Virus record (IMG/VR): IMGVR_UViG_3300011116_000574
Span: 1 to 64,000 of that record
DNA: 64,000 nucleotides
Source of the DNA: a virus
Direction: 5' to 3' (one strand)
A program made the translations under genes and the position numbers. The notes below the pieces were generated by a model that saw nothing but the letters and a program-made list of their open reading frames with translations, was not told the origin of the DNA and did not search any database. Positions 28,184 through 45,841 of this stretch are shown piece after piece (positions within the stretch are counted from its first letter, which is position 1; each line of letters begins with the position of its first letter).

Positions 28184-28377
28184 GACTGCTTTTTGCTTGA
28201 AAACAAGCTATTTTGCAGAGATTTTATACGATGTTCGTAATGTTGTATTTATATAGCCCACCCGCCCCCACATATATGTATATTTATTTTGATAGACATT
28301 CCAGAGATTTTTTTGGGGGGTTCGTAATAGGGGTTATATAGCGGGCGGGACAAAAAATATATTAGGGCATAGAGAAA

Positions 28378-28406
28378 CCCCCTAGATCTACCGCTTATCT
28401 AGGGGG
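28378..28406 (-). terminator. Hairpin downstream of the leftward array
   Basis: A 10-bp stem, CCCCCTAGAT with ATCTAGGGGG, 9-base loop, lies about 100 bases past the last leftward gene (28508). It probably ends that transcription before the origin. The U-tract is weak. Confidence 0.6.
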
Positions 28407-28507
28407 CTATATTATAGACTTGGCAGAAATAGCCTGAACGCCTATGTATGTTCTATTATACTATTAGATATATTAGATGTCAAGGGAGTTTTTAATTCCC
28501 CCGACTT

Positions 28508-28750
28508 TTATAGTTTCATCTGGTCGCATAAGTCGCCGATAGTTCCCATTGTACCTGGTCTAGCCAGACCACGCCGTTGGCGTTCTGCCATTAGATTGAC
28601 ATACTCTGTGATAATCTCAAAGAATTGCCAATTCACTTCATCTGTTTCTACCGAAATGGCGGAAGCAAACAAAAATGGAGAGAACCTACTATCGTGTACC
28701 GCTTCAACCAATGCTGAAACTGCTTTACCTGTTTTATCTCTAGTGGACAT
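28508..28750 (-). CDS. Hypothetical protein
   Basis: 80 aa with an AGGAGA site and cassette-type promoter (TTGATT, TGTCGG in the spacer, TACACT). Helical, with Arg-rich AERQRRGLARPG near the C terminus. No family is recognised. Confidence 0.6.
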   Translation of the reverse strand: MSTRDKTGKAVSALVEAVHDSRFSPFLFASAISVETDEVNWQFFEIITEYVNLMAERQRRGLARPGTMGTIGDLCDQMKL

Positions 28751-28804
28751 ACTTCTCCTTATTTAGTTGTGACCTACAAGTGTACCATACATTACCGACA
28801 TAAA

Positions 28805-29158
28805 TCAAGCAATTCTTACAATTTTGTCATCGCTGCGTACAACAATTTTTGGAGCTGTAACCTTTTCACACTCACACCAAATCATATGTTGAGAGCATGC
28901 TGCACAGTTTACAAAGCCTACTTTATAACCTTCCTTGGTATACCCATAAAGGCTTCTAGCTTCACGCTGTAGGGTTTGTGGCTTTAGCCTGGTACTTTTA
29001 GTACCCCCAAAGTCTTTTACTTTATTTAGCTTTAATTTAGGTTGATCGTCATCGAACACCCCATCATATTTAGCTAATTCAATTTTCATTAGGTCGTTAA
29101 ATCGACCACGCTCGCCCACGGTGAATCCTAGGCTTCTTAGATATTCTCGTTTAGTCAT
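28805..29158 (-). CDS. Hypothetical protein with RGR motif and Cys cluster
   Basis: 117 aa from ATG at 29158, inside the end of the upstream mini-gene. The N terminus MTKREYLRSLGFTVGERGRF contains an RGR that could contact the DNA minor groove as in Lsr2-like proteins. The C-terminal part has CAACSQHMIWCEC, a possible zinc site. DNA binding is inferred only. Confidence 0.55.
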   Translation of the reverse strand: MTKREYLRSLGFTVGERGRFNDLMKIELAKYDGVFDDDQPKLKLNKVKDFGGTKSTRLKPQTLQREARSLYGYTKEGYKVGFVNCAACSQHMIWCECEKVTAPKIVVRSDDKIVRIA

Positions 29159-29243
29159 TGTCATTTCCATTTCTAATAGTCTTACCAAATATGATAGCTG
29201 TGGGTAATCCCACAGCCAACCATATAACTAAATACTTAAGCAT
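29151..29243 (-). CDS. Mini membrane protein
   Basis: 30 aa: LKYLVIWLAVGLPTAIIFG then a charged tail. One membrane helix. It overlaps the upstream gene end by 8 bases and the downstream start (ATGACTAA), so translation is plausibly coupled. Confidence 0.45.
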   Translation of the reverse strand: MLKYLVIWLAVGLPTAIIFGKTIRNGNDND

Positions 29244-29703
29244 TTGTTGCTTCCCAATTCTCGTCATCTTTAATAAATTCTACTGCCCAATCTACAGCCT
29301 CATAGAACGCACCATGTACTTCACCTTCTGGCAGCACATCATCGTTCCATACTTCCCACCAAGGGTTATTTTGGTAGATATCAATTCCTCGTTCGTTCCA
29401 CCACAAATCATATAACTGACCCAAATCAAAGTCGGTCTTAGCAAATCGTTCTAGGTCATCGGTGTAGCGGCACACATTAATATCATGCTCTACCCATTGA
29501 CCTGGGTTATCCAAATCTTCGGCGGGAATTGAAATACGCATCTCTCCATTACGAGCTACATGAAGTACACGATCCTTATACTCTACTAGGGCAAATGTTT
29601 CACAATCATTTGAATAGGTATAAAACTCTGCAAACTGCTTATCTTCATATACAATCTCTGTATAGGTAATAGTTACATCATCTCGGTATTCTTTAAGTTC
29701 CAT
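29236..29703 (-). CDS. Hypothetical acidic protein
   Basis: 155 aa, very acidic and rich in Trp and Tyr (LYDLWWNERGIDIYQNNPWW). No family is recognised. Overlaps on both sides within the run 30385-28805. Confidence 0.6.
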   Translation of the reverse strand: MELKEYRDDVTITYTEIVYEDKQFAEFYTYSNDCETFALVEYKDRVLHVARNGEMRISIPAEDLDNPGQWVEHDINVCRYTDDLERFAKTDFDLGQLYDLWWNERGIDIYQNNPWWEVWNDDVLPEGEVHGAFYEAVDWAVEFIKDDENWEATNA

Positions 29704-29879
29704 TATAGGTTATTCCTTACTGTTGATATAGCACTAGCATACCCGTTATGCCAAGCTTTGTCAAGGTCTATTTCTTGATAATCCCCTGCCTCTAAAAGTC
29801 TATCCCAATTCTTTGCATCTTGCTCTTCTATTTCTTTAAGTACGGCAAACATATGTTCAATTAATTCATCTTTAGTCAT
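29703..29879 (-). CDS. Hypothetical acidic helical protein
   Basis: 58 aa: MTKDELIEHMFAVLKEIEEQ and WHNGYASAISTVRNNL. Its stop shares bases with the next ATG (TAATG), and it overlaps the upstream gene. No family is recognised. Confidence 0.55.
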   Translation of the reverse strand: MTKDELIEHMFAVLKEIEEQDAKNWDRLLEAGDYQEIDLDKAWHNGYASAISTVRNNL

Positions 29880-30060
29880 TTGTAAACTCCACAGTAATAT
29901 AGTCCATTAGTTCGTTTTCATTAGATAGATTAGTTATATCTGTACAGAAAGCTTCTTTAGCATACTGTACTAATTCTTCTTCTGTCATATCTTCTACATC
30001 AATTGGCTCAAAGGCGGGATTGATGTAAAAAGTAATAGATGTTTTAAGTACTCTATTCAT
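29872..30060 (-). CDS. Hypothetical protein
   Basis: 62 aa, a beta strand then acidic helices (EDMTEEELVQYAKEAF). Similar in style to other small acidic proteins of this array. No family is recognised. Confidence 0.55.
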   Translation of the reverse strand: MNRVLKTSITFYINPAFEPIDVEDMTEEELVQYAKEAFCTDITNLSNENELMDYITVEFTND

Positions 30061-30385
30061 TGATTAACTCCAAATCTTCGTGTGTAAGGAATAGGCAATT
30101 TGCATCAATTTCAAAGTAGTAGCCTGTATCTCTGATGATTAAATTAAACCAATCATACGCCCACTCTGCTACTAACATTAAGTCTTCAAGGATAGACTCA
30201 TCACCAGGATAGTCATCTAATTGGTTTTTAAGTTCTTTCCAATCTTCTACATTTAGGGTCAAGCCAAAGTGTAGGGCTGTTTCAACAAGTTGAATATCGA
30301 ACTCTTTACCGCTCATATTAGTGCCGTCAATCCAGCAACCTAATTGTTCTTCTGTTACATCATTTAAGTCATATATTTTCTGCAT
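30053..30385 (-). CDS. Hypothetical acidic protein, leaderless
   Basis: 110 aa from ATG at 30385. The -10 (TACCAT) lies 5 bases before this ATG and TTGATT lies upstream, so the mRNA should be leaderless. The longer start would fall in the -10. Acidic and helical; family unknown. Confidence 0.55.
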   Translation of the reverse strand: MQKIYDLNDVTEEQLGCWIDGTNMSGKEFDIQLVETALHFGLTLNVEDWKELKNQLDDYPGDESILEDLMLVAEWAYDWFNLIIRDTGYYFEIDANCLFLTHEDLELINE

Positions 30386-30471
30386 ACCCAATGGTAGCAT
30401 AAGTTCCAGAGAAAATCAAGGGGTTTCGTAATAAAGATCTAAAAATTTATCGGGTCCACCCGCAACCCCAA

Positions 30472-30633
30472 TTAAGGGGCTGGAGCAAAGAAAGTATTAT
30501 CAAAAGCTTCGTCAACAGCATCACAGATACCACTTACAATAAAGTCAATGGCGTGTTCCTCATCTCCGATATCTAGGCTATCTAAATACTTTGCTATGTT
30601 GTCATATATATTACTCTTTAGTTCATCATACAT
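30472..30633 (-). CDS. Hypothetical protein, paralogue of 30646
   Basis: 53 aa. It shares with the upstream gene the layout of an N-terminal helix, YLD, and an end with VDEAFDNTFFAP (compare VDTFDEAFFAHPP). A tandem duplication is likely. A ribosome site GGAG precedes ATG. Confidence 0.55.
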   Translation of the reverse strand: MYDELKSNIYDNIAKYLDSLDIGDEEHAIDFIVSGICDAVDEAFDNTFFAPAP

Positions 30634-30645
30634 TATTTGATCTCC

Positions 30646-30834
30646 TTATTGGATTTGTGCGGTAAGGGTACTTGGGGGGTGTGCAAAGAAAGCTTCATCA
30701 AAGGTATCTACAATAACCTGACATAGGTCATCATATACCCACTGCCTATCAACATCTAGATATTGTGACTGAACGGTATCCATATAAGATAGGATATTCT
30801 CTTGCAACTGTTCTCTTAAGTCATTTAGTGTCAT
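30646..30834 (-). CDS. Hypothetical protein, paralogue of 30472
   Basis: 62 aa, helical and acidic, ending DTFDEAFFAHPPSTL. Overlaps the upstream gene by ATGA. No family is recognised. Confidence 0.55.
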   Translation of the reverse strand: MTLNDLREQLQENILSYMDTVQSQYLDVDRQWVYDDLCQVIVDTFDEAFFAHPPSTLTAQIQ

Positions 30835-31001
30835 TTGATTTTCTTCTTTCCAATAGTTACTGACGGATATACATTATAGAAATGTTTGACAAACTCAAGA
30901 GCCGTATCCCACTGCTCTAATTCAATACCTGTATCATTATGCATTTCAACTAGGTCATCTGCTAGTCGTTCTAATAATCTTAAGTCAATTAGTTTACTCA
31001 T
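30831..31001 (-). CDS. Hypothetical protein
   Basis: 56 aa: MSKLIDLRLLERLADDLVEM, then EQWDTALEFVKHFY and a basic tail IGKKKIK. Starts within the upstream stop and ends within the next start, showing coupled translation. Confidence 0.55.
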   Translation of the reverse strand: MSKLIDLRLLERLADDLVEMHNDTGIELEQWDTALEFVKHFYNVYPSVTIGKKKIK

Positions 31002-31138
31002 ATAGATACTATCTCCGTCTCAAACTCGTATAAATCTTCACCGTGATAACTACACCACGCATAATAACCGTCACTTACATCAAACAAAGAAACTTCATCT
31101 TTGCACCTACGACATACGATAAGTTCTTCTTTACTCAT
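30998..31138 (-). CDS. Small zinc protein
   Basis: 46 aa: VCRRCKDEVSLF and AWCSYH supply three Cys and a His for a probable zinc site. Overlaps both neighbours by a few bases. Confidence 0.55.
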   Translation of the reverse strand: MSKEELIVCRRCKDEVSLFDVSDGYYAWCSYHGEDLYEFETEIVSI

Positions 31139-31304
31139 CTTCATCATCTTCCGTTACATACTGTTCATCTACATCAATGGCATACACTTCTGAGAAATTT
31201 GTATAATCTTCCCACTTCCAGCCCTCTGCTTCTGCTTCTGCAATATTATCTGCTTCCACTTCATAGTTAAACTTAACTGTTACTTCTACATCATACTTAG
31301 GCAT
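31131..31304 (-). CDS. Small beta-alpha hypothetical protein
   Basis: 57 aa: YDVEVTVKFNYEVEADNIAE then AEAEGW and a very acidic end. The strand, EAD, helix layout recurs at 31719 and 33753 and looks like the DpnD/PcfM-type fold. Function unknown. Confidence 0.5.
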   Translation of the reverse strand: MPKYDVEVTVKFNYEVEADNIAEAEAEGWKWEDYTNFSEVYAIDVDEQYVTEDDEDE

Positions 31305-31527
31305 AAGACACTTCCTCTATTTCGGTTGAATAAGAAAATTCTAGTGGAGCAAAGCCACACCAGTCTTTTAGAAAATCATTGGCTTTTTGTACTATTACTT
31401 GCTCTTCATAAATCATATCGTCTAGCGAACCCCTAGAGTTAATATTTACTAACTCTAGGTTGTCTACATCTACGGTTGTAGATAAAACAAAATAGTCTGC
31501 GATAAATGTTACTTTATATGAATTCAA
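31297..31527 (-). CDS. Hypothetical protein
   Basis: 76 aa, two or three beta strands then a helix (QVIVQKANDFLKDWCGFAPL). Overlaps neighbours in the 31901-30472 run. No family is recognised. Confidence 0.55.
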   Translation of the reverse strand: MNSYKVTFIADYFVLSTTVDVDNLELVNINSRGSLDDMIYEEQVIVQKANDFLKDWCGFAPLEFSYSTEIEEVSYA

Positions 31528-31738
31528 TTTCTACTCCATTGTTTTGGTAATCTACTGCTTCATCTTCGTGATATACATTATGACCCTTTGCCTCAAAGTA
31601 GTCAAACATATCTTCATAGTCTACACCATCAGGGTCGGCGGTGTCAAGAATAAATTGGTTATATTCTTCTTCATCTAACTCTATAGTATAAGTATGTAGC
31701 ATAGCCACATCATATGTTTTAACTAACCTGATAGTCAT
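31514..31738 (-). CDS. Hypothetical acidic protein
   Basis: 74 aa from ATG at 31738 with a GGGGGG ribosome site. The N terminus is beta (TIRLVKTYDVAMLHTYTIEL), followed by acidic helices. No family is recognised. Confidence 0.55.
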   Translation of the reverse strand: MTIRLVKTYDVAMLHTYTIELDEEEYNQFILDTADPDGVDYEDMFDYFEAKGHNVYHEDEAVDYQNNGVEIEFI

Positions 31739-31901
31739 TGTATTCCCCCCATAGAATTTCATCTGGAATTGTTTCCATAGTGTCAAGATTGACGATAGTA
31801 TGTCCGTCTACAAAGTATTGGTTGTCACGATACATTGTTTCTGCTTCCTCAAATGACTCTGCTTCAACAAATGCTGTGATAGTAATTTCATATTCTGCCA
31901 T
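31719..31901 (-). CDS. Small beta-alpha hypothetical protein
   Basis: 60 aa from ATG at 31901 (GAGAGGAAC site). EYEITITAFVEAESFEEAET is the same layout as 31131 and 33753. Cassette promoter upstream (TTGATT, TGTCTG, TACCAT). Confidence 0.55.
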   Translation of the reverse strand: MAEYEITITAFVEAESFEEAETMYRDNQYFVDGHTIVNLDTMETIPDEILWGEYNDYQVS

Positions 31902-32029
31902 TTTGTTCCTCTCGGTAGTTGATACATCAATGGTATCAGATAGGTCAGACATAATCAAGTATAATCTCGGAGATTTTTTAGATCCTTCGTAATTAGAGCT
32001 TTAAAGGCGGGCGAACCCGAATACCCCAT

Positions 32030-32239
32030 CTAATGATAGATGGGATACTCAAGGCGATCTAAGATAGTTGCAATTTTTCCTTGACAATATTCTGCAATCT
32101 TCTTTGCTTTATCTAAATCTTGAACAGTCAAGTCAAACGAGTTGTCTGCGTACTGCTCTGTTTCTAATCCATATTTCATAGCCTCAAACATACCAGCCAA
32201 CTGGTGCTTGGAACTTGGGGTTGTAATTGTTACAATCAT
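32030..32239 (-). CDS. Hypothetical protein
   Basis: 69 aa: a beta strand (IVTITTPSSKHQLAGMFEAM) then helices and EYCQGKIATILDRL. Followed by a cassette. No family is recognised. Confidence 0.55.
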   Translation of the reverse strand: MIVTITTPSSKHQLAGMFEAMKYGLETEQYADNSFDLTVQDLDKAKKIAEYCQGKIATILDRLEYPIYH

Positions 32240-32321
32240 TTTCTGTTTTCTCCTAGTTATGTGAAAGTGGGGTTTTTATTGTGGTTATCCCCAGCCACAG
32301 TTTACCTACCTACCCGTAGAG

Positions 32322-32789
32322 TTAGCCCTCGTTACAATAGACGACAAAGGTATCGTAGTCTTGGATTTCGTAGTCAGAGTTTTCGCTGATGATGTCAAAC
32401 GAGAAGTCGTGACCCTCTACGCTATCTGCATCAGTACCGACTGGTAGTGTCATTGTAACCGAGAAAGTTACATTTACATCAACGGTTGCTTCATTGGTTA
32501 GTTCAATGTCAAGCAAGCGAGCAATTTCATCTGCGTGGTCGCCTAGTTCATCATAGTTTTCAATTAGGTAGTCACGAACATTGTCAATTCTACCCTCTAA
32601 CTTGGTGTTGCGACTTGCTAGAATTGCTTTGTTGCTGTAAAGAGAAGTGACCTCGTGTGCTTCAAGGACTTTTGGTGTTACGCCTGAATAAACAGGCTGA
32701 TGTGTATTCACCACAATCTTGGCGTATGGGTCATAAGTTAGTTCGTCTGTTACGGTTTCGGTGCTTGCGTGTTTTGGTGCGTATGTCAT
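32322..32789 (-). CDS. Hypothetical protein
   Basis: 155 aa. The central helices SLYSNKAILASRNTKLEGRI and VRDYLIENYDELGDHADEIA are followed by a beta domain TVDVNVTFSVTMTLPVGTDA. Stands alone between cassettes. No family is recognised. Confidence 0.6.
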   Translation of the reverse strand: MTYAPKHASTETVTDELTYDPYAKIVVNTHQPVYSGVTPKVLEAHEVTSLYSNKAILASRNTKLEGRIDNVRDYLIENYDELGDHADEIARLLDIELTNEATVDVNVTFSVTMTLPVGTDADSVEGHDFSFDIISENSDYEIQDYDTFVVYCNEG

Positions 32790-32948
32790 TTGTTTTCCTT
32801 ATCGGGTAGTTGTTATTACAATAATACACTATGGGGGCGACATAAATCAAGTAAAAGTCCAGAGATTTTTGAAGCTTTCGTAATTGACTTATCCAGGATC
32901 GGGATAACCCGCACCCCCCACAAAAGTGGGGGGTGGAGATTTACCTAC

Positions 32949-33716
32949 CTACTCAACCTCAAGTTCATCAAGTTCAGCAATACGCTTTTCGGCTAACAAT
33001 CTAAATGGGCAATCATCAAATAACCACTCTGACTGTGCTTCTAATTCATCTTTAGGTAGGGTTAGGATTTGTTGAGTTGTGTATTCATCAACTTCCCCCC
33101 ACACACAAGCGGTACAAGGTATGTCAAGTGCCATAAAGTCTGCGTGACTAGGGCTATCTACAAACTGGTCAGATACAAGTACGCCACCTGCGTAATGTAA
33201 CTTACCTGCAAAGAAGTTGGCTTCCTCTGTAATCTCATACTCAAACTCAAGATTAGGGAAACGCTCTGCCATAGCGTCATACGCTTCTACGGCTGGCGAC
33301 CAAGCGGTATCAAAAGACCAGTTAAAATACCAGTTACCGTCATTACGCTGGTCAAGGGTTATGTATTCTCGGTCTAAGGTTTTATCCCACTTAGTACCCC
33401 AGTTACGAACATTCCAATCGTACCAATGATTAGATACGGCTAGTTTATGCTCTATCTCTGGCAAAGATGAATTGAAATCTGTGCTTGCGGAAATCTTGAT
33501 TTTGCTTTGTGAGGCAAAGTATTCGTCAAGGATTTCGGCTGGCGGTGTAATAAAGTTCCAAAAAACACCTTTATCATTTTCATCTAAAACATTTGTATCT
33601 GTCTGATAGTCATAGTGATTAGATGTATGTGGCTTATCGGCAAAGTCTAGAAACTCGTTGAGTTCTGCTTCTGTCTTGGCTGATACGATTACTGAATTGA
33701 AACACCAGTTTGGCAT
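32949..33716 (-). CDS. YubB/DUF1281 ferredoxin-like protein
   Basis: 255 aa. The start MPNWCFNSVIVSAKTEAEL, then VFWNFITPP, WYDWNVRNWGTKWD and FDTAWSPAVEAYDAMAERFP are hallmarks of the Api92/YubB ferredoxin-like family seen in phages and plasmids. Function unknown. An extra C-terminal 50 residues carry a DIPCTACVWGEVD segment. Own ribosome site with CCGAAAGGA. Confidence 0.8.
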   Translation of the reverse strand: MPNWCFNSVIVSAKTEAELNEFLDFADKPHTSNHYDYQTDTNVLDENDKGVFWNFITPPAEILDEYFASQSKIKISASTDFNSSLPEIEHKLAVSNHWYDWNVRNWGTKWDKTLDREYITLDQRNDGNWYFNWSFDTAWSPAVEAYDAMAERFPNLEFEYEITEEANFFAGKLHYAGGVLVSDQFVDSPSHADFMALDIPCTACVWGEVDEYTTQQILTLPKDELEAQSEWLFDDCPFRLLAEKRIAELDELEVE

Positions 33717-33752
33717 TTGCTTGTCCTTTCGGTAGGTTGTTAGACTATCTTA

Positions 33753-33953
33753 TCAGTTTTCGGGGGTAGTGTCAAGAGAAACTTCAACACCATCCCAATC
33801 ATAAATTGAATTTGTTGAAACCTGCAATGGCTGAAATGTTGGATCTGTGTTAGCCCAGTTTTCTGCGATAGTTAGTGCTTCATCATAACTGTCTGCTTCA
33901 ATGTGAATTTCATCTGAAACTGTGTAAGTTAGGTATGCGGTGTATGTTGACAT
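33753..33953 (-). CDS. Small beta-alpha hypothetical protein
   Basis: 66 aa from ATG at 33953 with an AGGAGAA site. TAYLTYTVSDEIHIEADSYD then EALTIAENWA shows the same strand-EAD-helix layout as 31131 and 31719. Confidence 0.55.
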   Translation of the reverse strand: MSTYTAYLTYTVSDEIHIEADSYDEALTIAENWANTDPTFQPLQVSTNSIYDWDGVEVSLDTTPEN

Positions 33954-34204
33954 TTTTTCTCCTGTTGGTAGTTGGTTTGTAGTATGTGGGGGACTGGTCT
34001 TTAGTTCTAGAATTTCAACCATTTTCTCGTACCGTCTAGTGGTATTAGCCCCACATACATTATCTAGTGTACACTATGGGTCAGACATAATCAAGGATAA
34101 TTCCAGAGAATTTTTGGTAGCTTCGTAACTAGGGTAATTATGGCGGGTCAACCCGATCAAAAAAATTTTGTCAAATTTACTTGACAAACCCCGAAGGGCT
34201 GGGG

Positions 34205-35197
34205 TTATACCCCAGCCACTTCAGTTACGATTGACAACAGTTTATTTTTTTCTGCGTTCACAACAGGGTCAAAACCTGCTGTTCCCATAAGTAGACTTTC
34301 GTCATTACCGCGAGAAGTTCTGAACCAATCAAGGCGTTCGGTTAAAGCGTTGTACGCACCCCAAGCGTTGCCAGCAATCATACCGTTGGTATCGCCAACA
34401 TAGATTTCCTCTAGCAATTCAATCTTGTTTTCCCATTTCTTTACAGCACCCTTTTTGTCTGCTTCTGGCATTGGGTATGCAAGCGAAACAATCTGGTCAA
34501 ACTGTGCCTTGCTGATTTCAGTTTCAATCATAGCGTGTGCAAGTTTATCAAACTCATCAAGGTATGCGTTAGCAAGACCTAATGCTTCGCGAGCCTGTGC
34601 AACTCTACCGTCAATGGACTGCGTGTGTCGCAACTTGAAAGATTGGTTAGCACCCTTGCGGAATACTGCGGTGTGAGTATTCATACAGGTTAGGCGGATT
34701 GGTGTAACAGTAGCCTGAACAGCACTAGAACCATCGTGGCTCGTAGAGATAGCAAGGTAGTTCTTGACAACATCACGAACACCATTAGGGTCAAGTACGG
34801 TTTCACGCTCTAGGGCTAACGCACCGAAAACGATACGACCATTTTTCAATGAACCAGCAACTTCCCAACGACCACCGTCAAGTAGGTTATCGCCAAACGC
34901 AAAAAGTTCCTCGTTCTGTAAAGTTTTGTAACGCTTGCCCACAACTGACAAAACATTTGAGTGCTTGTCCTCTGGGTGGTCACGCACAACAAGAAAGTTC
35001 TCGGCGGTCATAGAATAGTTATCAGGTAATGGGATTTCCTCTAAGCGAACATTCCAATTATCTAGGTTTGCTAAAGATAGCATTTCAGAAGTAGTAACTT
35101 CATTTTGGAACACAGTTCCAAGTTGGTGGTAGGCAGGTGTACGCAGGGAAGCGTAAGAAGCCTGACCGTTGATGATTTCAATTTGGTCAATTGCCAT
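34205..35197 (-). CDS. DUF932 / phage-plasmid-like protein
   Basis: 330 aa. The pattern TPAYHQLGTVFQNEVTTSEM, VVGKRYKTLQNEELFAFGD, LKNGRIVFGALAL and TPIRLTCMNTHTA is that of DUF932 (TIGR03299-type) proteins. The family is common on phages and plasmids and its molecular role is not settled. The largest leftward gene here, flanked by cassettes, and richer in GC than its neighbours. Confidence 0.85.
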   Translation of the reverse strand: MAIDQIEIINGQASYASLRTPAYHQLGTVFQNEVTTSEMLSLANLDNWNVRLEEIPLPDNYSMTAENFLVVRDHPEDKHSNVLSVVGKRYKTLQNEELFAFGDNLLDGGRWEVAGSLKNGRIVFGALALERETVLDPNGVRDVVKNYLAISTSHDGSSAVQATVTPIRLTCMNTHTAVFRKGANQSFKLRHTQSIDGRVAQAREALGLANAYLDEFDKLAHAMIETEISKAQFDQIVSLAYPMPEADKKGAVKKWENKIELLEEIYVGDTNGMIAGNAWGAYNALTERLDWFRTSRGNDESLLMGTAGFDPVVNAEKNKLLSIVTEVAGV

Positions 35198-35347
35198 TTA
35201 TTTCTCCTAAGTTAGATTTACCTACTAAGTGTAACACAGGGCTATGACATAAATCAAGGATTATTTTATTTAATCTCGGAGATTTTTTTGCCCCTTCGTA
35301 ATTGGATACGAAAGGGCGGGTCAACCCGCAGCTGCGGGTTTGTCAAG

Positions 35348-35421: not shown

Positions 35422-35427
35422 AAGAAA

Positions 35428-35455: not shown

Positions 35456-35536
35456 CCCTGTTATGTTTATTAAATCTATCTATACACTCACCAAGCAATA
35501 ACATACAAAATGCTAGGCTACTGTTTTCTTGGCACT

Positions 35537-36007: not shown

Positions 36008-36037
36008 TTAGAACTCCTTATTTGTTGGTAGGTAAAA

Positions 36038-39104: not shown

Positions 39105-39251
39105 AATTTTCTCTCTTTCGGTAGGTTGATAAATCAAGTGTAGCAGTCTTGTCTGACATTTTCAAGGATAATTCCAGAGATTTTTGAACATCTTCGTACT
39201 TGACAACCCCGCAGCAGCGGGGTATCCCGCCTTTCGGCGGGGCTTTAATGG

Positions 39252-39521
39252 TTATTCCCAGAAGTCCTGTATTTCAGACAAGTCGTTGATACTTTCAATG
39301 TTGGCTCGCTCATAGCATAGGTAAAGCGTATTTAGTAAAGCGTGACCAATCATAGAAGCGGTGTCATAAGAAGCCAAATCTGCTTCTGTTAGATAATCAA
39401 AGTCAAATTCTTTTTCTGTTTCTGATAAAGCAAATAGGTATTGCTCTACAAGAGTTTCAAAGTCAATGAACATCTTGCCCTCGTGAACCATTGAATTTAG
39501 TTCGCCGTCTGCTATAAACAT
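39252..39521 (-). CDS. Hypothetical acidic helical protein
   Basis: 89 aa, helical (TLVEQYLFALSETEKEFDFD). Promoter with TGTCGG spacer and TAAGAT, and a CCGAAAGGAAAG site. No family is recognised. Confidence 0.6.
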   Translation of the reverse strand: MFIADGELNSMVHEGKMFIDFETLVEQYLFALSETEKEFDFDYLTEADLASYDTASMIGHALLNTLYLCYERANIESINDLSEIQDFWE

Positions 39522-39641
39522 TTCTTTCCTTTCGGTAGGTTATGTAATAATCTTAGCACACATTACCGACATTTTCCAGAGAAATTTTAACTAATCGTAA
39601 ATAAGCTGAAAAAGATCGGGGTAGCCCGAAGACCCAGTTTG

Positions 39642-39848
39642 TCAAACTGGGTCGCAGGTGGTGTAGAAAAATTGGATACTATCCGCAGGAACATAAATTA
39701 TTTCATCACCTGTTTTTGTTTCAAAAGATAGTAATCCGTTTTCAATACGGAAAGCATTGTCTGGGTGAACATCTGGGAACTCATAGGGGTTAGCAATTCC
39801 GTTTGGTTGTTCTTTGTAGACAATGTGTAAGTTAGTTTGAAATTCCAT
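39642..39848 (-). CDS. Hypothetical protein
   Basis: 68 aa, mostly beta (NLHIVYKEQPNGIANPYEFP; ENGLLSFETKTGDEIIYV). Starts at the upstream gene's stop. No family is recognised. Confidence 0.55.
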   Translation of the reverse strand: MEFQTNLHIVYKEQPNGIANPYEFPDVHPDNAFRIENGLLSFETKTGDEIIYVPADSIQFFYTTCDPV

Positions 39849-39953
39849 TTAGTAGTCCTCTTTCGCTTCTGGTACACTAGCACCGCATAGCATACAGGTT
39901 GGGTTGGTTCTGTCTGTTACATTGACAATCGGGTGAACTTTACACTCTTTCAT
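39849..39953 (-). CDS. Mini zinc protein
   Basis: 34 aa: ECKVHPIVNVTDRTNPTCML then CGASVPEAKED. Cys-x-x-His and CxxC could bind one zinc. Overlaps the WhiB gene end by 14 bases. Confidence 0.5.
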   Translation of the reverse strand: MKECKVHPIVNVTDRTNPTCMLCGASVPEAKEDY

Positions 39954-40155
39954 TTTTCAATAACGCCTTTCGCTCGTCACCGAGTAGACCGCCATAAATA
40001 CCGTCTACACTTTCATTTGAGAGTGCGAACTCTAAGCACTCTGATTTTACAGGGCAAGCGTTACACAATGACAACGCCAACGCCCTATCTTTTAGTTTGG
40101 CACTAAAAAAGATTTCTGGGTCTGCCTCTAAGCAATTTGCCTTATCCTGAAACAT
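39940..40155 (-). CDS. Short WhiB family protein
   Basis: 71 aa from ATG at 40155. Cluster cysteines C8, C31, C34 and C40 (CNACPVKSEC), then GIYGG at 52-56 and a basic end. Shorter than the WhiB at 23151 and lacking a long C-terminal tail. It sits inside the cassette array, so it could control those promoters through the host sigma factor, though this is only inferred. Confidence 0.88.
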   Translation of the reverse strand: MFQDKANCLEADPEIFFSAKLKDRALALSLCNACPVKSECLEFALSNESVDGIYGGLLGDERKALLKNERV

Positions 40156-40313
40156 AATCTGCCTTTCGTTTGTTGGTAATACTATTATGACACACGCCAC
40201 CGACATTTTTGGTAGCGACACGCACAATTTCAGAGATTTTTTTGGGGCTTCGTAATTTGACAAACCCCGAAGATCGGGGTACCCCGATCCCCCACGAAGT
40301 GGGGGCGGGAAGG

Positions 40314-40781
40314 CTAAAGTCCCAACCCTTCGGCAAGAGAGTTAGCAATTGCTCTAACCTCTATTGCCCAATGCTCTGATAAGTCATCTTCAAGCATCTT
40401 TTCTGATAAGTCAAAGAGTTGTTTTACATAGTCTGGAACGCTGTCAGGTTGTGTTACTAGGTCTTCATCTTCATCAAGCCAAGCATCATCTACATAGTCT
40501 TCATCATAGCACCAAGCGGATAGGTGGTGTTGTTCAATGATTGCCCAAGCAGGTGCGGTTGATTTACCATTTTTGTAGAATACACCTTCAGGCAGTTCAA
40601 TTTCTAGACTGCCATTGTCTTCATTGTAAGCGTTGATTGCTTCAATACAAGGCTGAACCATAGTCAATGGGATTGGTGGATAGTGATTGCTTGTTAGTTG
40701 AATAGCAATTTGCTGTTCAAGGCTAATGTCAATACCGTATTCTGATAGACTTGCTAAGTCGTTTGCTGTGTTGTTACCCAT
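40314..40781 (-). CDS. Hypothetical protein
   Basis: 155 aa from ATG at 40781; a TTG 12 bases upstream lacks a proper ribosome site. Acidic, with WAIIEQHHLSAWCYDEDYVD. No family is recognised. Confidence 0.6.
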   Translation of the reverse strand: MGNNTANDLASLSEYGIDISLEQQIAIQLTSNHYPPIPLTMVQPCIEAINAYNEDNGSLEIELPEGVFYKNGKSTAPAWAIIEQHHLSAWCYDEDYVDDAWLDEDEDLVTQPDSVPDYVKQLFDLSEKMLEDDLSEHWAIEVRAIANSLAEGLGL

Positions 40782-40786
40782 AAGAG

Positions 40787-40930
40787 TTACCAACCTTTCT
40801 TGTGTTTTAGTTTGCGAGTGTAGGCTTTCTTATTTTTATGACCACCGCTTGCGTTGGAACGGCGTAATTCCAAGCGAGCCTGTAACTGTTCAGGTGTTGC
40901 CTGTGTTGCTGTAATCATTTTCTTTTTCAT
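40787..40930 (-). CDS. Small basic protein, leaderless
   Basis: 47 aa from ATG at 40930. TATTCT lies 6 bases before ATG. Very basic: ELRRSNASGGHKNKKAYTRK then LKHKKGW. May bind nucleic acid; one of the few basic proteins of this array. Confidence 0.55.
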   Translation of the reverse strand: MKKKMITATQATPEQLQARLELRRSNASGGHKNKKAYTRKLKHKKGW

Positions 40931-41064
40931 ACCTAAAGAATAGCACACCTCACCGACAATTTCCAGCATAACCCAGAGATTTTTTTGGAGTGTCGTAATT
41001 TGACAACCCCGCTCTGGCGGGGTATCCCGATCAGCCAGCTTTGTCAAGTCGGCTGTCGGTGTGT

Positions 41065-41127
41065 CTAATCTTTTTCGCTAAGAATTATGGCGATAAATTG
41101 CAATAGCATATAAATTAGTCTATTCAT
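41065..41127 (-). CDS. Possible 20-residue membrane peptide
   Basis: MNRLIYMLLQFIAIILSEKD, a single hydrophobic helix, with AGGGG upstream and an overlap with the 41120 gene stop. Too short to be sure; other membrane mini-genes in this array make it plausible. Confidence 0.3.
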   Translation of the reverse strand: MNRLIYMLLQFIAIILSEKD

Positions 41128-41653
41128 GTGAACCCCTGTAAATTATCCAGATTAGTGCTTGTGTTGTGCGAGGTGTTAGCCCCATTGCCTTAGCAACATC
41201 TTTAACCGCTTGTGCCATTTCGCGGTATTGTGTTTTATTTGGTGCATTGGTATCTAGTCCACCTGCGTAGCACATCCATACATCTATCGTTACCGCATTT
41301 TCATCGCCAGCAATTGCACGAGCGAACGCATTAGTTTTTAAGCCTTTAAGTGCATTGAACCCTAGCACTAAACTATTTTGTGCCATAACTAAATTGTTTT
41401 TTAGTCCTGTCGCTTTTCCTGTGTGTGCGAATTCTAACGCTTGCACAACATTTCTTGCCCAACGCTGACGAGGTGAGAATGATGAAACAACACTAGCACC
41501 ATTTTCAATAGTTGCTTTTATGCCACGACTAGCAAGAATACGCACAACATCGTGTGCCACTAATTCTGCATCTGCATACCATTGCGTAGCCAATTCAATT
41601 TGGGTAGCGGTTGCCTTTTTTGCAATTGCGAGGTAGTGGTTGAAGTAATCCAT
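41120..41653 (-). CDS. Conserved phage protein, DNA-glycosylase-like helical core (DUF7178-like)
   Basis: 177 aa. VSSFSPRQRWARNVVQALEF, then GLKTNAFARAIAGDENAVTI and DVWM resemble the helix-hairpin-helix plus Asp region of HhH glycosylase-like proteins found in actinophages. Activity is not established. Promoter and CCGAAAAGAG site upstream. Confidence 0.6.
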   Translation of the reverse strand: MDYFNHYLAIAKKATATQIELATQWYADAELVAHDVVRILASRGIKATIENGASVVSSFSPRQRWARNVVQALEFAHTGKATGLKNNLVMAQNSLVLGFNALKGLKTNAFARAIAGDENAVTIDVWMCYAGGLDTNAPNKTQYREMAQAVKDVAKAMGLTPRTTQALIWIIYRGSHE

Positions 41654-41779
41654 TTTTGCTCTTTTCGGTAGGTTGTAGTAATACTGTACCAGATACCGCC
41701 GACATTTTCCAGAGAAATTTTAGGCGTGTCGTAACTTGACAACCCCGCCTTGGCGGGGTACCCCGAAGGGTGGTGGGAA

Positions 41780-42076
41780 TTAGTTTTCCCAACCAAACAA
41801 AGAGCCTTCCGCATAGTCATCAATCATGTAGTCCATGTCACCAGAACCAAAAATAGCGTTCCAACAGTCACCGCAAGTACCTGTAATAAAGCGTTCACGA
41901 ACATCAACATCAAAATCAGATAGGACATCTTGAACATAAGCACCTTGATTGTATGCGTACAGTTTTTCAGGGGAAATCTGAATAGTGATAGTTTCATCAC
42001 AGGTTGGGCAAACCTTAGAAGTAACTGAATAAGCGGATAGGTCGGCGGTCTTGACAATGTTATTTAGAGTGAACAT
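41780..42076 (-). CDS. Zinc-binding hypothetical protein with LFGW tail
   Basis: 98 aa. VCPTCDETITIQI and GTCGDCWNAIFG give two CxxC pairs. It ends AEGSLFGWEN. The next gene upstream, 42196, ends EGYLFGWDA, so the two share a C-terminal motif. Function unknown. Confidence 0.6.
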   Translation of the reverse strand: MFTLNNIVKTADLSAYSVTSKVCPTCDETITIQISPEKLYAYNQGAYVQDVLSDFDVDVRERFITGTCGDCWNAIFGSGDMDYMIDDYAEGSLFGWEN

Positions 42077-42195
42077 TTTTTCTCCTTTAGGTTAATAGTT
42101 TTATTGTAGCATAACGCCCAGACATTTTCTAGAGATTATTTTGTGGTGTCGTAACAAGGCGAAGCTTGGCGGGGTACCCCGCAGGGTGATTGGGA

Positions 42196-42417
42196 TTATG
42201 CATCCCAACCAAAAAGGTATCCCTCAAAGCCCCTGTCCTCGTCACCCTCGTCAACTTCACAGACACACTCGTCTGTGCCACCGCAACTTGGGCATTCGTT
42301 GTCGTAGTCGTAGTCAGAGTATGGGTCATAAGTGTCAAGCAAAGCCTGTGTCCTTTCATCCTCAAATTGGTTATTCCAGATTTCCATCATTGTTTCGGCG
42401 GTGTAGAACTCATCCAT
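42196..42417 (-). CDS. Acidic zinc protein with LFGW tail
   Basis: 73 aa, strongly acidic, with CPSCGGTDECVC and the end FEGYLFGWDA. AGGAG site before ATG. Possibly a DNA-mimic-like or adaptor protein; nothing proves this. Confidence 0.6.
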   Translation of the reverse strand: MDEFYTAETMMEIWNNQFEDERTQALLDTYDPYSDYDYDNECPSCGGTDECVCEVDEGDEDRGFEGYLFGWDA

Positions 42418-42554
42418 AGGTACTCCTCAAGGTTAGGTTGATAAAATAATTGTAGCAGGGTGCGGTGACATTTTTCAGAGATTTTTAAGGGGTGTCGTAA
42501 CAAGGGTTGGAGATCGGGGTACCCCGAAGGGCTGTGCTTGTCAAGCCGACACGC

Positions 42555-42740
42555 CTACAAGACATTGTATGTTGCTAAAAAAACAAAAAGAGGGGAAAAA
42601 CAAATAAGCAACATCAGAGGCAGGTCAAAACGGTATGCCTTGCCATTTGTTTTTTCATAATTATCTAGTTCAATAGCACCTAACCAACTAAAACCAAAGG
42701 TAATAAGTGATAGTGCCGAAGCGATTAAGATTGTTTCCAT
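42555..42740 (-). CDS. Two-span membrane protein
   Basis: 61 aa. Hydrophobic segments at about residues 4-22 and 41-60 with a charged loop (ELDNYEKTNGKAYRFD). AGGAGAAA site. Function unknown. Confidence 0.6.
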   Translation of the reverse strand: METILIASALSLITFGFSWLGAIELDNYEKTNGKAYRFDLPLMLLICFSPLFVFLATYNVL

Positions 42741-42749
42741 TTTTTCTCC

Positions 42750-42890
42750 TTATGAGTAGTAATCGGCTAGAGTGTCAAAGTCTGAATAATAGGCAGGGTC
42801 ATCATAAGCACCATAGCATTCTGGGCAAAGTAGGTTGCCATTGTTTCCAACATAGTCCATTTCAATTTCGCAAAATACGCAAAGTTCCAT
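42750..42890 (-). CDS. Small zinc ribbon
   Basis: 46 aa: LCVFCEIEMDYVGNNGNLLC then PECYGAYDD, two CxxC pairs at zinc-ribbon spacing, with an acidic Tyr-rich tail. Upstream of it lies a cassette promoter (TGTCAG, TAAAAT). Confidence 0.6.
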   Translation of the reverse strand: MELCVFCEIEMDYVGNNGNLLCPECYGAYDDPAYYSDFDTLADYYS

Positions 42891-43041
42891 TTTTATCTCC
42901 GTTCGTTATGCTTCAATTTTAACACAGGCTACTGACATTTTTCCAGAGATTTTTTGAGTGTGTCGTAACTTGACAAAGATCAAAAACGGGGTACCCCGCA
43001 GGGGTCGGCGTGTCAAGTCGACACGCCGAGTGTCTTGTGAA

Positions 43042-43194
43042 TTACCGCAAGGTAATCCATTTTGTTTCGGTATCAGTTTCCACCAATACACGAACAATTT
43101 TATCGCCACTCTTGGTGGTCTGTTCTGCTACATCTAGGGCAACACCTGATGTGTTACCGCTTGCTGATGTTACTAGGTCTCCGATTTTTACCAT
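43042..43194 (-). CDS. WITLR-family small beta protein
   Basis: 50 aa: VKIGDLVTSASGNTSGVALD, then KIVRVLVETDTETKWITLR. Nearly the same as 44144 and 44828 and related to 36187. A KOW/SH3-type barrel is likely. The stop codon lies in a hairpin (GGATTACC-TTGC-GGTAATTC). Confidence 0.7.
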   Translation of the reverse strand: MVKIGDLVTSASGNTSGVALDVAEQTTKSGDKIVRVLVETDTETKWITLR

Positions 43195-43205
43195 TTGGTT
43201 CTCCT

Positions 43206-43454
43206 TTAGTTTGATGTTGCTATTGTAGCGGATAGGTCTGACAATTCTTGATTTACTCCGTCAATTTCTCGCTGTAAAGTTTCGGTGAGTTGTCGCTTTC
43301 CAAAGCCATTATCTAAGCCAATGGATAAAAGATAACCAACCTTTATCCAACCGTGTAGGCGGTCAGCGGTTCTTGGGTATTTTATTTTATCCAATTCATA
43401 CACAGCATTTACTAATTCCTCAGAAAGGTCTGCGAGTAATTTTTTGTCTGTCAT
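43206..43454 (-). CDS. Hypothetical helical protein
   Basis: 82 aa from ATG at 43454 with a GGAG site. Helical throughout, with LHGWIKVGYLLSIGLDNGFG and a coiled-coil-like end TETLQREIDGVNQELSDLSA. No family is recognised. Confidence 0.6.
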   Translation of the reverse strand: MTDKKLLADLSEELVNAVYELDKIKYPRTADRLHGWIKVGYLLSIGLDNGFGKRQLTETLQREIDGVNQELSDLSATIATSN

Positions 43455-43508
43455 TTGTTTCTCCATTTCGTTTGATGTTTTAATTTTAGCACGAGCCACC
43501 GACAAAAA

Positions 43509-43613
43509 TTATTTTTGAGTTGCTTTTGCGATTTGTGCTATTTTTTTGGCATCTGCTTTACGCTGTTCGTCACGCTCTGCTTTTACCATTTTTTTCCAGT
43601 CATCAAAATTCAT
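43509..43613 (-). CDS. Mini Lys-rich protein
   Basis: 34 aa from ATG at 43613 with an AGGAGAAA site. One charged helix: DDWKKMVKAERDEQRKADAK. May bind nucleic acid or form a coiled coil. Confidence 0.45.
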   Translation of the reverse strand: MNFDDWKKMVKAERDEQRKADAKKIAQIAKATQK

Positions 43614-43770
43614 TTTTTCTCCTATTGGGTTGGTAGTTCTATTATGACAGACACCACCGACATTTTTCAAGGATAACTCAGAGATTTTTTGGGCGTGTCG
43701 TAACTTGACAAAGATCAAAAACGGGGTACCCCGCCCACCCCACTTTGTCAAGTAGGGTGGGGTCTTTGGG

Positions 43771-43944
43771 TTAGAACGGAACTTCATCCCAAAGGCTTTC
43801 CTGCTCACGCATTTCATCATAGAAAAAATCAGGGTCGCACTCTGGACACATAATCATCTCGCACTCGCAAGGGATGCCGTCAAACATCCAATCTGGAGAT
43901 GAGGTCTTGAAACTGACAGGGGCGGTGAAATCAAAATCTGACAT
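43771..43944 (-). CDS. Small acidic zinc protein
   Basis: 57 aa. CECEMIMCPEC provides four Cys, and the rest is acidic (FFYDEMREQESLWDEVPF). Promoter with TGTCTG spacer and TACAAT. Function unknown. Confidence 0.55.
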   Translation of the reverse strand: MSDFDFTAPVSFKTSSPDWMFDGIPCECEMIMCPECDPDFFYDEMREQESLWDEVPF

Positions 43945-44143
43945 TTTGAGCCTTTCGGTTGGTGAATACTAAAATTGTAACACAGGGGGCAGACATAAAT
44001 CCAGAGAAAAATAAGGTGTGTCGTAACTTGACAAAGATCAGAAAACGGGGTACCCCGATCTAATCCAGAGATTTTATTTTATCATCGTAACTAGAAGAAT
44101 AAGCTGCCCCGCCAGGGGCGAATTTTTTCGCTGTTGAAGTGGA

Positions 44144-44329
44144 TTACCGTAGGGTAATCCATTTCATTTCGTTACTGTCAGTTTCCACTAACACGCGAAC
44201 AATTTTTTCACCAGACTTAGTGGTGAAAGGTTGAACATCAACCGCCACGCCTGAAGTGTTGCCACTCGCAGAAGTGACGAAATCGCCAACAGTTACATTT
44301 TCCAATAATGCTTCAAGAATGTTACCCAT
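44144..44329 (-). CDS. WITLR-family small beta protein
   Basis: 61 aa. A 12-residue N-terminal extension (GNILEALLENVT) precedes VGDFVTSASGNTSGVAVDVQ and RVLVETDSNEMKWITLR. The stop lies within a perfect 9-bp hairpin, TGGATTACC with GGTAATCCA (44140-44161). Second of three close paralogues. Confidence 0.7.
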   Translation of the reverse strand: MGNILEALLENVTVGDFVTSASGNTSGVAVDVQPFTTKSGEKIVRVLVETDSNEMKWITLR

Positions 44330-44383
44330 TTTTATCTCCTTTGTTTATGTTTCAATTGTAGCAGGGGGGACTGACAAAAATTA

Positions 44384-44524
44384 CTAATGTAATTCTGAAC
44401 AGTCTTTCATAGTACCGTCAAGCAGATACTCTACGCAATAACCGCAAACTGTGTTTAGGTCACATACAGGGCAAGATACCCACTCTGACCACTCATCACA
44501 AAACATTGAACAATAATCTAACAT
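44384..44524 (-). CDS. Small Cys-rich protein
   Basis: 46 aa: CSMFCDEWSEWVSCPVCDLN then CGYCVEYL, seven Cys in CxxC-type pairs, probably zinc or Fe-S. Cassette promoter (TGTCGG, TACAAT). Confidence 0.55.
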   Translation of the reverse strand: MLDYCSMFCDEWSEWVSCPVCDLNTVCGYCVEYLLDGTMKDCSELH

Positions 44525-44671
44525 TTGAACCTCTTTTCTTTATACCAAAATTGTACCACGCACCACCGACAAAAATTGAAACGACACGCCCAAACCCAGA
44601 GAATTTGACAAGGCTTCGTAACTGTGATAAAATTTTTGCCCCTGGCGGGGCGAAATTTTCGCCCCACTTTT

Positions 44672-44761
44672 TTATCGGTCTTTTAGAATTCCAAAAGCGA
44701 TTACGAATAGGGCTAGGGGTACGAACATTACGAACTCTGAGTGAATAAAGTTGTGTAGCAT
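44672..44761 (-). CDS. Mini membrane protein
   Basis: 29 aa: HSEFVMFVPLALFVIAFGIL plus KDR. One membrane helix. Promoter with TGTCAC and TAAACT upstream, followed by a hairpin with GGCGGGG. Confidence 0.45.
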   Translation of the reverse strand: MLHNFIHSEFVMFVPLALFVIAFGILKDR

Positions 44762-44827
44762 TTTATCTCTTTTCTTTTTGGTTATGGAATTAGTTTAGCG
44801 GATAGGTGTGACATTTTTTGAGGTGGA

Positions 44828-44983
44828 CTACCGTAGGGTAATCCACTTCAATTCGTTATCTTTAGTTTCAACCAAAACTCTAACGATTTTTTCGCCAGCC
44901 TTAGTTGTCATAGGGTTCACCTCTACGGCTACGCCTGAAGTGTTGCCACTTGCCGATGTTACCAAATCGCCGATGTTTGTCAT
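44828..44983 (-). CDS. WITLR-family small beta protein
   Basis: 51 aa from ATG at 44983 with AGGAG-like bases. NIGDLVTSASGNTSGVAVEV, RVLVETKDNELKWITLR. Same hairpin over the stop (44824-44845). Third close paralogue. Confidence 0.7.
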   Translation of the reverse strand: MTNIGDLVTSASGNTSGVAVEVNPMTTKAGEKIVRVLVETKDNELKWITLR

Positions 44984-45189
44984 TTGCGACTCCTTTTCTT
45001 TTTGTTGATAAATCAATAGTACCATACGCCACCGACATTTTTTGACAGACACGCCGACAAAATAGATCCAAATTGTATACAATGTTTTTTGCGACACGCC
45101 GTCAGAGAATTTGACAACCGCTCGTAAATAAGCTAAAATTTTTGCCCCTGGCGGGGCGAAATTTTTTCGCTATTTTTTTCGGCGGGCGA

Positions 45190-45306
45190 TTATGATTTTT
45201 CCTCGCTCTCTTTACTATCTGCACACGCAGAATAAATAAATACGAATGGCATTGATGCGAATACGATTACGGATACGGTTAGGGTTATGTTTAGTAGTGT
45301 TAGCAT
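45190..45306 (-). CDS. Small membrane protein
   Basis: 38 aa: LNITLTVSVIVFASMPFVFI then YSACADSKESEEKS. One hydrophobic helix and an acidic tail; a lipobox-like SAC is near residue 27 but not convincing. GAAAAGAG site. Confidence 0.5.
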   Translation of the reverse strand: MLTLLNITLTVSVIVFASMPFVFIYSACADSKESEEKS

Positions 45307-45361
45307 TTTTTCTCTTTTCGTTAGGTTGATGTTTCAATTGTAGGGGATAGGTACGACATTT

Positions 45362-45559
45362 TTACCAATTAGGTTTCATACCCTTGTGAGTGTCGCAAGT
45401 GTTTCCTGTACCTTGTTGGATAGGGCAGAAACAAATTACACAAGCAATTTGAACGGCGTTAGGGGTAACTAGGGCTAGTTCCAATTCAACGCTATCGGCG
45501 AATGATAGTTCGCTACTGTCAATCTGATTTTCACCATTTACGATTTTGATGTATCCCAT
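45362..45559 (-). CDS. Small Cys-containing protein
   Basis: 65 aa from ATG at 45559. The C-terminal half has CVICFCPIQQGTGNTCDTH, a likely zinc site. The first leftward gene of the array, next to the strand switch at 45.6-45.8 kb. Confidence 0.55.
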   Translation of the reverse strand: MGYIKIVNGENQIDSSELSFADSVELELALVTPNAVQIACVICFCPIQQGTGNTCDTHKGMKPNW

Positions 45560-45652
45560 TTTTTTCTCTTTTCTTTTTCTTGATGTTTCAATTGTAGCGC
45601 ATAGCACCGACATTTTTTGACAGACACGCCAGAGATTTTTGCGGGGCAAAAA

Positions 45653-45668
45653 TTGAACAAATGTTCAA
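45653..45668. promoter_or_regulatory. Palindrome between direct repeats at the strand switch
   Basis: TTGAACA-AA-TGTTCAA is a 7-bp inverted repeat flanked by two copies of GCGGGGCAAAAATT. It sits in the gap (45560-45841) between divergent units and is a candidate operator. No gene is seen in this gap. Confidence 0.5.
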
Positions 45669-45841
45669 ATTGGCGGGGCAAAAATTTTACCATAGGGGTA
45701 TGACAAAAACGGTTAGCGACACGCCGAAAATAAAAAAACATTGGATACAATCTTTTTTCAAAACACTAGCCAAAATGCCCAAAAATGTCGGCGGTATGTG
45801 TTACCATTGATGTATCAACAAAAAATGAAAGTAGGTTCAAA

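Follow-up and report, generated by a model that had tools for sequence, protein, structure and literature searches.

In the middle promoters of phage T4, the box of the activator MotA replaces the -35 hexamer and lies at a fixed distance from a sigma-70-type -10 hexamer. Cluster K actinophages carry start-associated sequences (SAS) and extended SAS (ESAS), a repeated element before many small genes. The stoperators of the cluster A phages L5 and TipsytheTRex comprise more than 20 asymmetric sites in one orientation, located in short intergenic gaps and promoter regions (PMC9283540). The Streptomyces regulator BldC binds head to tail and directionally on 9-bp direct repeats (PMC5859096), and with oligomeric winged helix-turn-helix factors such as RdfS it shares a MerR-like winged helix and directional binding to a variable number of such repeats in asymmetric, A/T-rich sites (PMC5859096, PMC11963761). 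In the halovirus HF2, intergenic repeats bear promoters and keep their position among related viruses (PMC8707807). Here we describe an array built of an element, E, and a promoter type, P, in the leftward gene arm (28-46 kb) of the virus record IMGVR_UViG_3300011116_000574. The window analysed consists of bases 1-64000 of this 100,657-bp record; labels beginning with G or L denote other genomes and loci that were compared with it.

About 25 small-gene promoters of the arm share promoter type P, and most of them have the two-part site E upstream. E is an asymmetric element of about 27 bp, TTACG[AG]-N12-14-TCTCTGGA (3' half TCTC[TC][GA]), with an A-tract. Its 23 copies with a spacer of 12-14 lie between 28239 and 45127, all on the minus strand; none was found on the plus strand or elsewhere in the record. 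TACGA and TCTC are invariant among these copies, an A/T run precedes TCTC, and the aligned block holds about 38 bits of information. When up to three mismatches are allowed, TTACGA-N13-TCTCTGGA has 24 matches in the window against 4.6 (standard deviation 2.0) in shuffles, and 20 of the 24 are true arm copies on the minus strand. A weight matrix for E gives 20 matches of at least 15 bits, all inside the arm, with none expected. P consists of an A/T-rich -35 region followed by ATGTC-N12-TAnnnT, TG frequently preceding TA; its matrix yields 28 minus-strand matches in the arm (fewer than one expected), and 25 copies are strict. The features are listed below in window coordinates, with distances running from TACG of E to the TGTC of P.

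45101-45127, minus strand: E copy 1, the weakest copy, P about 89 bp away
44595-44621, minus strand: E copy 2, 49 bp to TGTC
44064-44090, minus strand: E copy 3, located 5' of a further hairpin and of copy 4, lacking its own P
44000-44026, minus strand: E copy 4, 30 bp to TGTC
43677-43703, minus strand: E copy 5, promoter -10 is CATAAT
42942-42968, minus strand: E copy 6, 30 bp to TGTC
42474-42500, minus strand: E copy 7, 29 bp to TGTC
42128-42154, minus strand: E copy 8, 29 bp to TGTC (same junction in relatives: 40, 28, 49, 36)
41708-41734, minus strand: E copy 9, in front of the DUF7178 gene, 29 bp to TGTC (relatives: 40, 39 or 49)
40972-40998, minus strand: E copy 10, 39 bp to TGTC
40229-40255, minus strand: E copy 11, 5' of the WhiB gene
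39575-39600, minus strand: E copy 12, spacer shorter by one, 28 bp to TGTC
39173-39199, minus strand: E copy 13, GTACGA, 40 bp to TGTC
38364-38390, minus strand: E copy 14, 40 bp to TGTC
37484-37510, minus strand: E copy 15, 40 bp to TGTC
36592-36618, minus strand: E copy 16, promoter without TGTC yet in register
35275-35301, minus strand: E copy 17, flanked by tRNA-Asp and the DUF932 gene, 51 bp to TGTC (nine genomes: 50-51)
34102-34128, minus strand: E copy 18, 40 bp to TGTC
32858-32883, minus strand: E copy 19, spacer shorter by one, 40 bp to TGTC
31966-31992, minus strand: E copy 20, 3' half TCTCCGAG, TACG to TGTC 40 bp
30405-30431, minus strand: E copy 21, -35-like TTGATT within the E spacer, so that E overlaps the promoter
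28300-28327, minus strand: E copy 22, first member of the arm-end tandem pair
28214-28240, minus strand: E copy 23, second member of the arm-end tandem pair, P not close
28777-45717, minus strand: P, 25 strict copies; first base of TGTC at 45705, 45612, 45358, 45037, 44813, 44571, 44376, 43995, 43504, 43243, 42937, 42470, 42124, 41704, 40958, 39571, 39158, 38349, 37469, 36389, 35249, 34087, 32842, 31951 and 28800
45774-45809, plus strand: P facing right, before a small gene in the 45785-46000 region, matrix match
45997-46032, plus strand: P facing right, before the small gene 46065-46364, matrix match
41735-41777, minus strand: example of a GC hairpin block, CTTCGGGGTACCCCGCCAAGGCGGGGTTGTC, in front of E

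A first-pass annotation of the window, made from its letters alone, had proposed more than 20 copies of one ordered, one-sided cassette of hairpin, operator and promoter. The scans of both strands and of related phages bear out the repeated block, which is far more alike than chance and is kept in relatives, and an operator-promoter array usually does follow a terminator-like hairpin. The single cassette did not hold: 9 of the 25 strict P promoters lack E and a few E copies lack a P, so E and P are two independent elements. One-sidedness likewise applies to E in this genome but not to P, whose two plus-strand copies (45774 and 45997) serve both rightward small genes. The proposed -35 hexamer, TTGATT, is present in 8 of the 25 P copies, each of them in the left part of the arm, whereas the others have TTGAAA, TGGAAA or A/T runs and the constant part is TGTC-N12-TAnnnT; the TTGTCAA said to stand often before E was found as TGTCAA 5' of 9 of the 23 copies. 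A drift of the family into two blocks is real for the letters after TTACGA but is not ancestral, as the same junction may carry the other E type in a relative (TTACGAAGC at 36618 here, TTACGACAC at 17537 in G002).

P resembles T4 middle promoters in having a box at a fixed distance (12 bp) from a sigma-70-type -10 hexamer, but the box is TGTC[AG]G rather than that of MotA, and there is an additional, phased element upstream. The repeats of HF2 differ in that their promoters are archaeal and that no helically phased upstream operator is described for them. Unlike cluster K SAS, which lie at the start codon, E stands upstream of a promoter. E was not found described in the literature searched, in which coverage of subscription journals was poor.

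The distance from TACG to TGTC was measured in ten discovery genomes and three held-out genomes. In the discovery genomes the distances fall into the classes 28-32, 38-41, 48-52, 62 and 70, with the gaps between them empty, and the clusters among related phages centre on 29, 40, 51 and 62 bp. A Rayleigh test at a period of 10.5 bp gave R = 0.84 for the unmerged set (n = 73, not independent) and R = 0.79 (p = 3e-5) for 17 sequence-similarity clusters; clustering on the intervening sequence alone gave 15-23 clusters with R of about 0.7 and p of 1e-3 to 1e-5, and a periodogram peaking at 10-10.5 bp. The distances in the held-out genomes (36, 38, 38, 39, 41, 50, 51, 52, 64 and 75) lie mostly in the predicted classes.

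The strongest evidence for phasing comes from orthologous junctions. Among 122 pairs, 86 differ by 0-4 bp, 27 by 7-13 bp and 9 by 20-21 bp, and none differs by 5-6 or 14-19 bp. Across genomes, E-to-TGTC is 29, 40, 39 or 49 bp at the DUF7178 junction and 29, 40, 28 or 49 bp (36 in one genome) at the junction of the MFTLNN gene, and it stays at 50-51 bp at the DUF932 junction in nine genomes despite changed intervening bases. At the level of groups, whole-turn jumps of E-to-TGTC are supported (p = 0.006, eight jumps), while neither TGTC-to-ATG (p = 0.95) nor hairpin-to-E (p = 0.89) follows a turn-wise rule. It is thus the promoter, not the hairpin, to which E is tied, and E is most likely neither part of a terminator nor an RNA signal. 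We hold with moderate confidence that E acts as a double-stranded DNA operator, working with P from a fixed face of the helix, and one regulator probably controls the arm by binding there. A protein on E would touch the promoter complex from one helix face, for which reason the distance between E and P would change by whole, not half, turns.

The tie to the promoter bears directly on the reading of E as a stoperator-like roadblock or fail-safe terminator, at which a bound repressor would halt read-through from the preceding gene and silence the arm. Such a role would suit an element that follows hairpins, is asymmetric and one-sided per genome, occupies short intergenic gaps and closes the arm with a tandem pair. 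The quantised distance, however, runs to the promoter and not to the hairpin, and E is antisense to transcription in the Loccivirinae. The 13-bp L5 consensus GGTGGMTGTCAAG, with three mismatches, has 24 matches against 20.2 expected, which is chance level, and no tyrosine integrase (PF00589) was found in this genome or in four relatives, serine integrases and repressor families not having been searched for; together with the antisense E of the Streptomyces phages, this argues against stoperators of the L5 type. The two-part E resembles them in that it could suit a two-domain monomeric binder, but it differs from them in sequence, in its greater length, in its helical phasing to the promoter and in an orientation relative to transcription that is not conserved in the family. 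The first-pass annotation was right that the motif is distinct from L5 stoperators and from SAS (the SAS consensus GGGATAGGAGCCC has 2 weak matches against 5.6 expected), and its L5-like "stop" function for E is not supported. The array resembles but is not the L5 stoperator system, and we regard a roadblock as improbable.

We found a half-site of about 9 bp, T[CG][AT]CNRGAA (TCTCTGGA in this genome). For the consensus TCACNRGAA, whose background rate is 1% per position, the last half-site starts 10-12 bp before TGTC at 28 sites, 20-24 bp at 24 and 31-33 bp at 14 (including one at 31). Tandem half-sites are spaced by 9 bp (11 pairs), 11 bp (3) or 12 bp (5), and extra helical turns often hold an additional half-site. 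E would thus combine three parts: the TTACGA box, the A-tract and at least one such half-site.

Sites of the C-terminal domain of the RNA polymerase alpha subunit (alpha-CTD) show helix-face phasing and an A/T run. E might accordingly be an UP-like or host-regulator site, with the host alpha-CTD or a host factor on the A-tract near -42, -53 or -64, depending on the class, and no phage regulator involved; the phasing is what such sites would show, and these A-tract positions were computed from the 29, 40 and 51 classes, with the A/T run lying before TCTC. A plain A-tract does not explain why invariant TACGA and TCTC flank it here or why the core is kept in phages of another host genus with 53% GC, and we consider this explanation unlikely.

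We next consider the distribution of E, for which related arms were gathered by the E pattern and by portal and DUF932 protein searches. G002 carries 20 E copies, and other relatives have E with a diverged 3' half, TTACGA-N-AAAAA-TCACNGAA. In the viral records of the relative search the pattern lies on one strand only, and a reversed control gave one match. TTACG-N-AAATCTC occurs 8 times in BillNye, 8 in Circinus, 7 in Muntaha and 4 in Ankus, always on the minus strand and with zero matches in reversed controls; Wakanda has 7 E under a looser pattern, and no E was found in the Boydwoodruffvirinae Anedea and Daubenski. The E core has hence persisted in phages with 53% GC that infect another host genus, and several BillNye copies start at the stop codon of the preceding gene. 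With 4-8 copies in isolated Streptomyces phages (Stanwilliamsviridae, Loccivirinae), E is ancestral.

Several observations weigh against an operator that acts with P through a phage regulator. In BillNye, where the genes are annotated, E is antisense and the local genes are on the plus strand; in both BillNye and Muntaha it runs opposite to the local genes, and in the freshwater clade it has one orientation relative to transcription. P was not found in two BillNye stretches tested, so that E occurs without P in Streptomyces phages. E is most likely older than P and has no fixed polarity with respect to transcription, which speaks against an obligatory roadblock and an RNA signal as well. E also stands without P at 44064-44090 and in the arm-end tandem pair (28300-28327 and 28214-28240). 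The three held-out genomes alone give no significant phasing (R = 0.35, n = 10), and since E copies share descent, the independent turn-wise changes are few (eight group-level jumps). The candidate binder described below also occurs in phages in which E is not recognised.

Other repeats were seen in the relatives. At Loccivirinae E sites (L264-L281), TTTCGTAA lies between complementary arms that co-vary at the same junction among BillNye, Muntaha and Ankus, and E may additionally form a hairpin or cruciform there. In BillNye (NC_042105, 85-119 kb, L257), AAGCTTCC directly follows GC hairpins in 15 copies, and TCTCGGGA has 13 copies, most of them immediately 5' of ATG. The arms of G003, G011 and G020 show strong enrichment of GGCGTGTCG, with 7 copies in 15.6 kb of G003 against 0.01 expected.

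Our best guess for a putative E binder is a MerR-like winged-helix protein of the family core, encoded at 87976-88488 of the genome, outside the window and just before the helicase region. It shares about 45-53% identity with proteins annotated as MerR-like helix-turn-helix, and has matches in 134 Streptomyces and Rhodococcus phages; the MerR-like protein of BillNye is gp183. Of 18 records searched, 16 contain it, and the remaining two are partial contigs. An AlphaFold model of an ortholog (mean pLDDT, the predicted local distance difference test, of 80) predicts a MerR-type winged-helix fold; its PDB neighbours are MerR-type regulators and BldC, none at an E-value below 0.001. C-terminal to the winged helix lies an invariant, AT-hook-like GRPR-x-D motif. 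If this protein binds E, directional head-to-tail binding of the BldC type would fit asymmetric sites that change in turn-wise steps. Compared with BldC, the candidate carries extra N- and C-terminal parts and its binding to E is putative; tandem 9-bp half-sites are present at E, in a sequence other than that of BldC, whose consensus AATTNNNNC is not enriched (AATTN4C occurs in 2 of the 23 E segments and in 9% of random arm segments).

Other candidates were rejected or gained no support. A phage sigma factor was sought through its Sigma70_r4 domain, which was not found. No phage single-subunit RNA polymerase was seen for a T7-like promoter; the PF00940 search gave no match, in control genomes likewise, and the large proteins scanned gave polymerase III, terminase, tape measure or nothing. 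ParB_N, as expected for a ParB/Noc-like site, is absent. The flanks of TTACGA pair as an RNA hairpin better than shuffled flanks in L211/L212 alone (2 of 500 shuffles); this genome, G002 and L213-L222 show no such excess, and Rfam gave nothing above threshold except tRNA. A terminator-linked role of E was dismissed on the unconstrained hairpin-to-E distance.

GC hairpins lie 5' of nearly every E. In this genome a strong hairpin is found within 150 bp upstream of all 16 strict P copies that have E, and most P copies without E have none (Fisher p = 5e-4). The GC blocks (41735-41777, 39200-39245 and other junctions) often consist of three or four alternately complementary segments, such as CCCGCC-GGCGGG-CCCCGC-GCGGGG, predicted to allow mutually exclusive hairpins. 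Hairpin cores are homogenised per genome, with GGGGTACCCC 8 times in the arm described here, GGGTCGACCC 15 times in G054 and a GGGGCGACCC-type core 10-11 times in each of G055, G056 and G061, and P letters are more alike within genomes (7.0 of 12) than between them (6.2), with 100 of 100 shuffles lower. This homogenisation would be expected if the repeats were recombination boundaries, at which cassettes made up of a terminator, E, a promoter and a gene would be duplicated or swapped, the copies being alike through conversion rather than regulation. Conversion explains neither the turn-wise spacing of E and P nor an E core conserved family-wide where the hairpins differ, and we give this account the least credence of all.

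Orientation could instead point to a strand-specific genome element for replication, partition or packaging, fixed relative to the structural genes: E lies opposite to the structural-gene strand both here and in BillNye, though the local genes run opposite ways, and in several genomes tandem E copies stand beside DnaA-box-like 9-mers. With two clades only, the shared orientation may be chance, and the spacing to P is left unexplained, making this alternative very improbable. Four DnaA-box-like 9-mers occur within 90 bp at 27950-28040 of the window, beside the tandem E pair, and similar clusters lie near the arm ends of relatives; this region is a possible origin. A strong leftward promoter, TTGACATTACGA...TATGCT, at 28135-28106, has TTACGA inside the promoter itself.

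The genome has a GC content of about 37% and encodes portal, capsid, a class II ribonucleotide reductase, WhiB, DUF932, transfer-messenger RNA and tRNAs. Its DnaE-like polymerase is 55% identical to those of the Streptomyces phages BillNye, Circinus and Muntaha, and the gene order glycosyltransferase, ribonucleotide reductase, ..., portal, protease, capsid is the same as in BillNye (Stanwilliamsviridae: Loccivirinae); by polymerase and gene order, the phage is related to the Stanwilliamsviridae. A portal scan found 551 relatives in IMG/VR, and a blastn search with one structural gene against phages gave no match. The host is probably a freshwater actinobacterium, as WhiB and the literature on freshwater actinophages suggest (PMC6802176, PMC10202952). 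A 110-kb contig, CAINGU010000031.1 (L226), with a portal 69% identical, sits in a cyanobacterial metagenome-assembled genome and was the sole phage contig from a scan of genome contigs; it is probably mis-binned. Within the arm, a lone tRNA-Asp (35347-35421, minus strand), set apart from the other tRNAs, is followed by a hairpin and E. Tandem paralogous small genes (GDLVTSASGNTSGVA...) lie on the minus strand at 44134-44287, 44818-44971 and about 43055-43190; two of the copies are 80% alike over 154 bp, with the third nearby.

Taken with the operator reading of E, the hairpin would end the previous transcript and E with P would start the next, so that the leftward arm would be a row of insulated small units with one shared regulatory input. 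The joint switch of dozens of genes in the first-pass annotation agrees with this insofar as shared control is the natural reading of the array. Activation would be favoured over repression, as P has poor -35 hexamers like those of activator-dependent promoters. In a fuller picture, which we regard as possible but doubtful, a phage-encoded, family-wide MerR/BldC-like protein would assemble head to tail on a single face of the helix, starting at the TTACGA box and A-tract, continuing over tandem 9-11-bp half-sites and reaching the TGTC box in the promoter spacer, and would switch more than 20 small-gene promoters jointly. Turns would be gained or lost by adding half-sites, promoter strength would evolve in helical-turn steps, and the element would go back to an ancestor that freshwater actinophages share with the Streptomyces phages of soil.

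Large actinophages carry long arms with dozens of small genes of obscure role, the control of which is mostly unexplained. E offers a concrete, conserved control element for such arms, with an evolutionary signature in whole-turn spacing changes at the same gene junction. Since isolated Streptomyces phages, BillNye and Muntaha among them, carry E as well, laboratory study is feasible, though the freshwater virus is uncultured.

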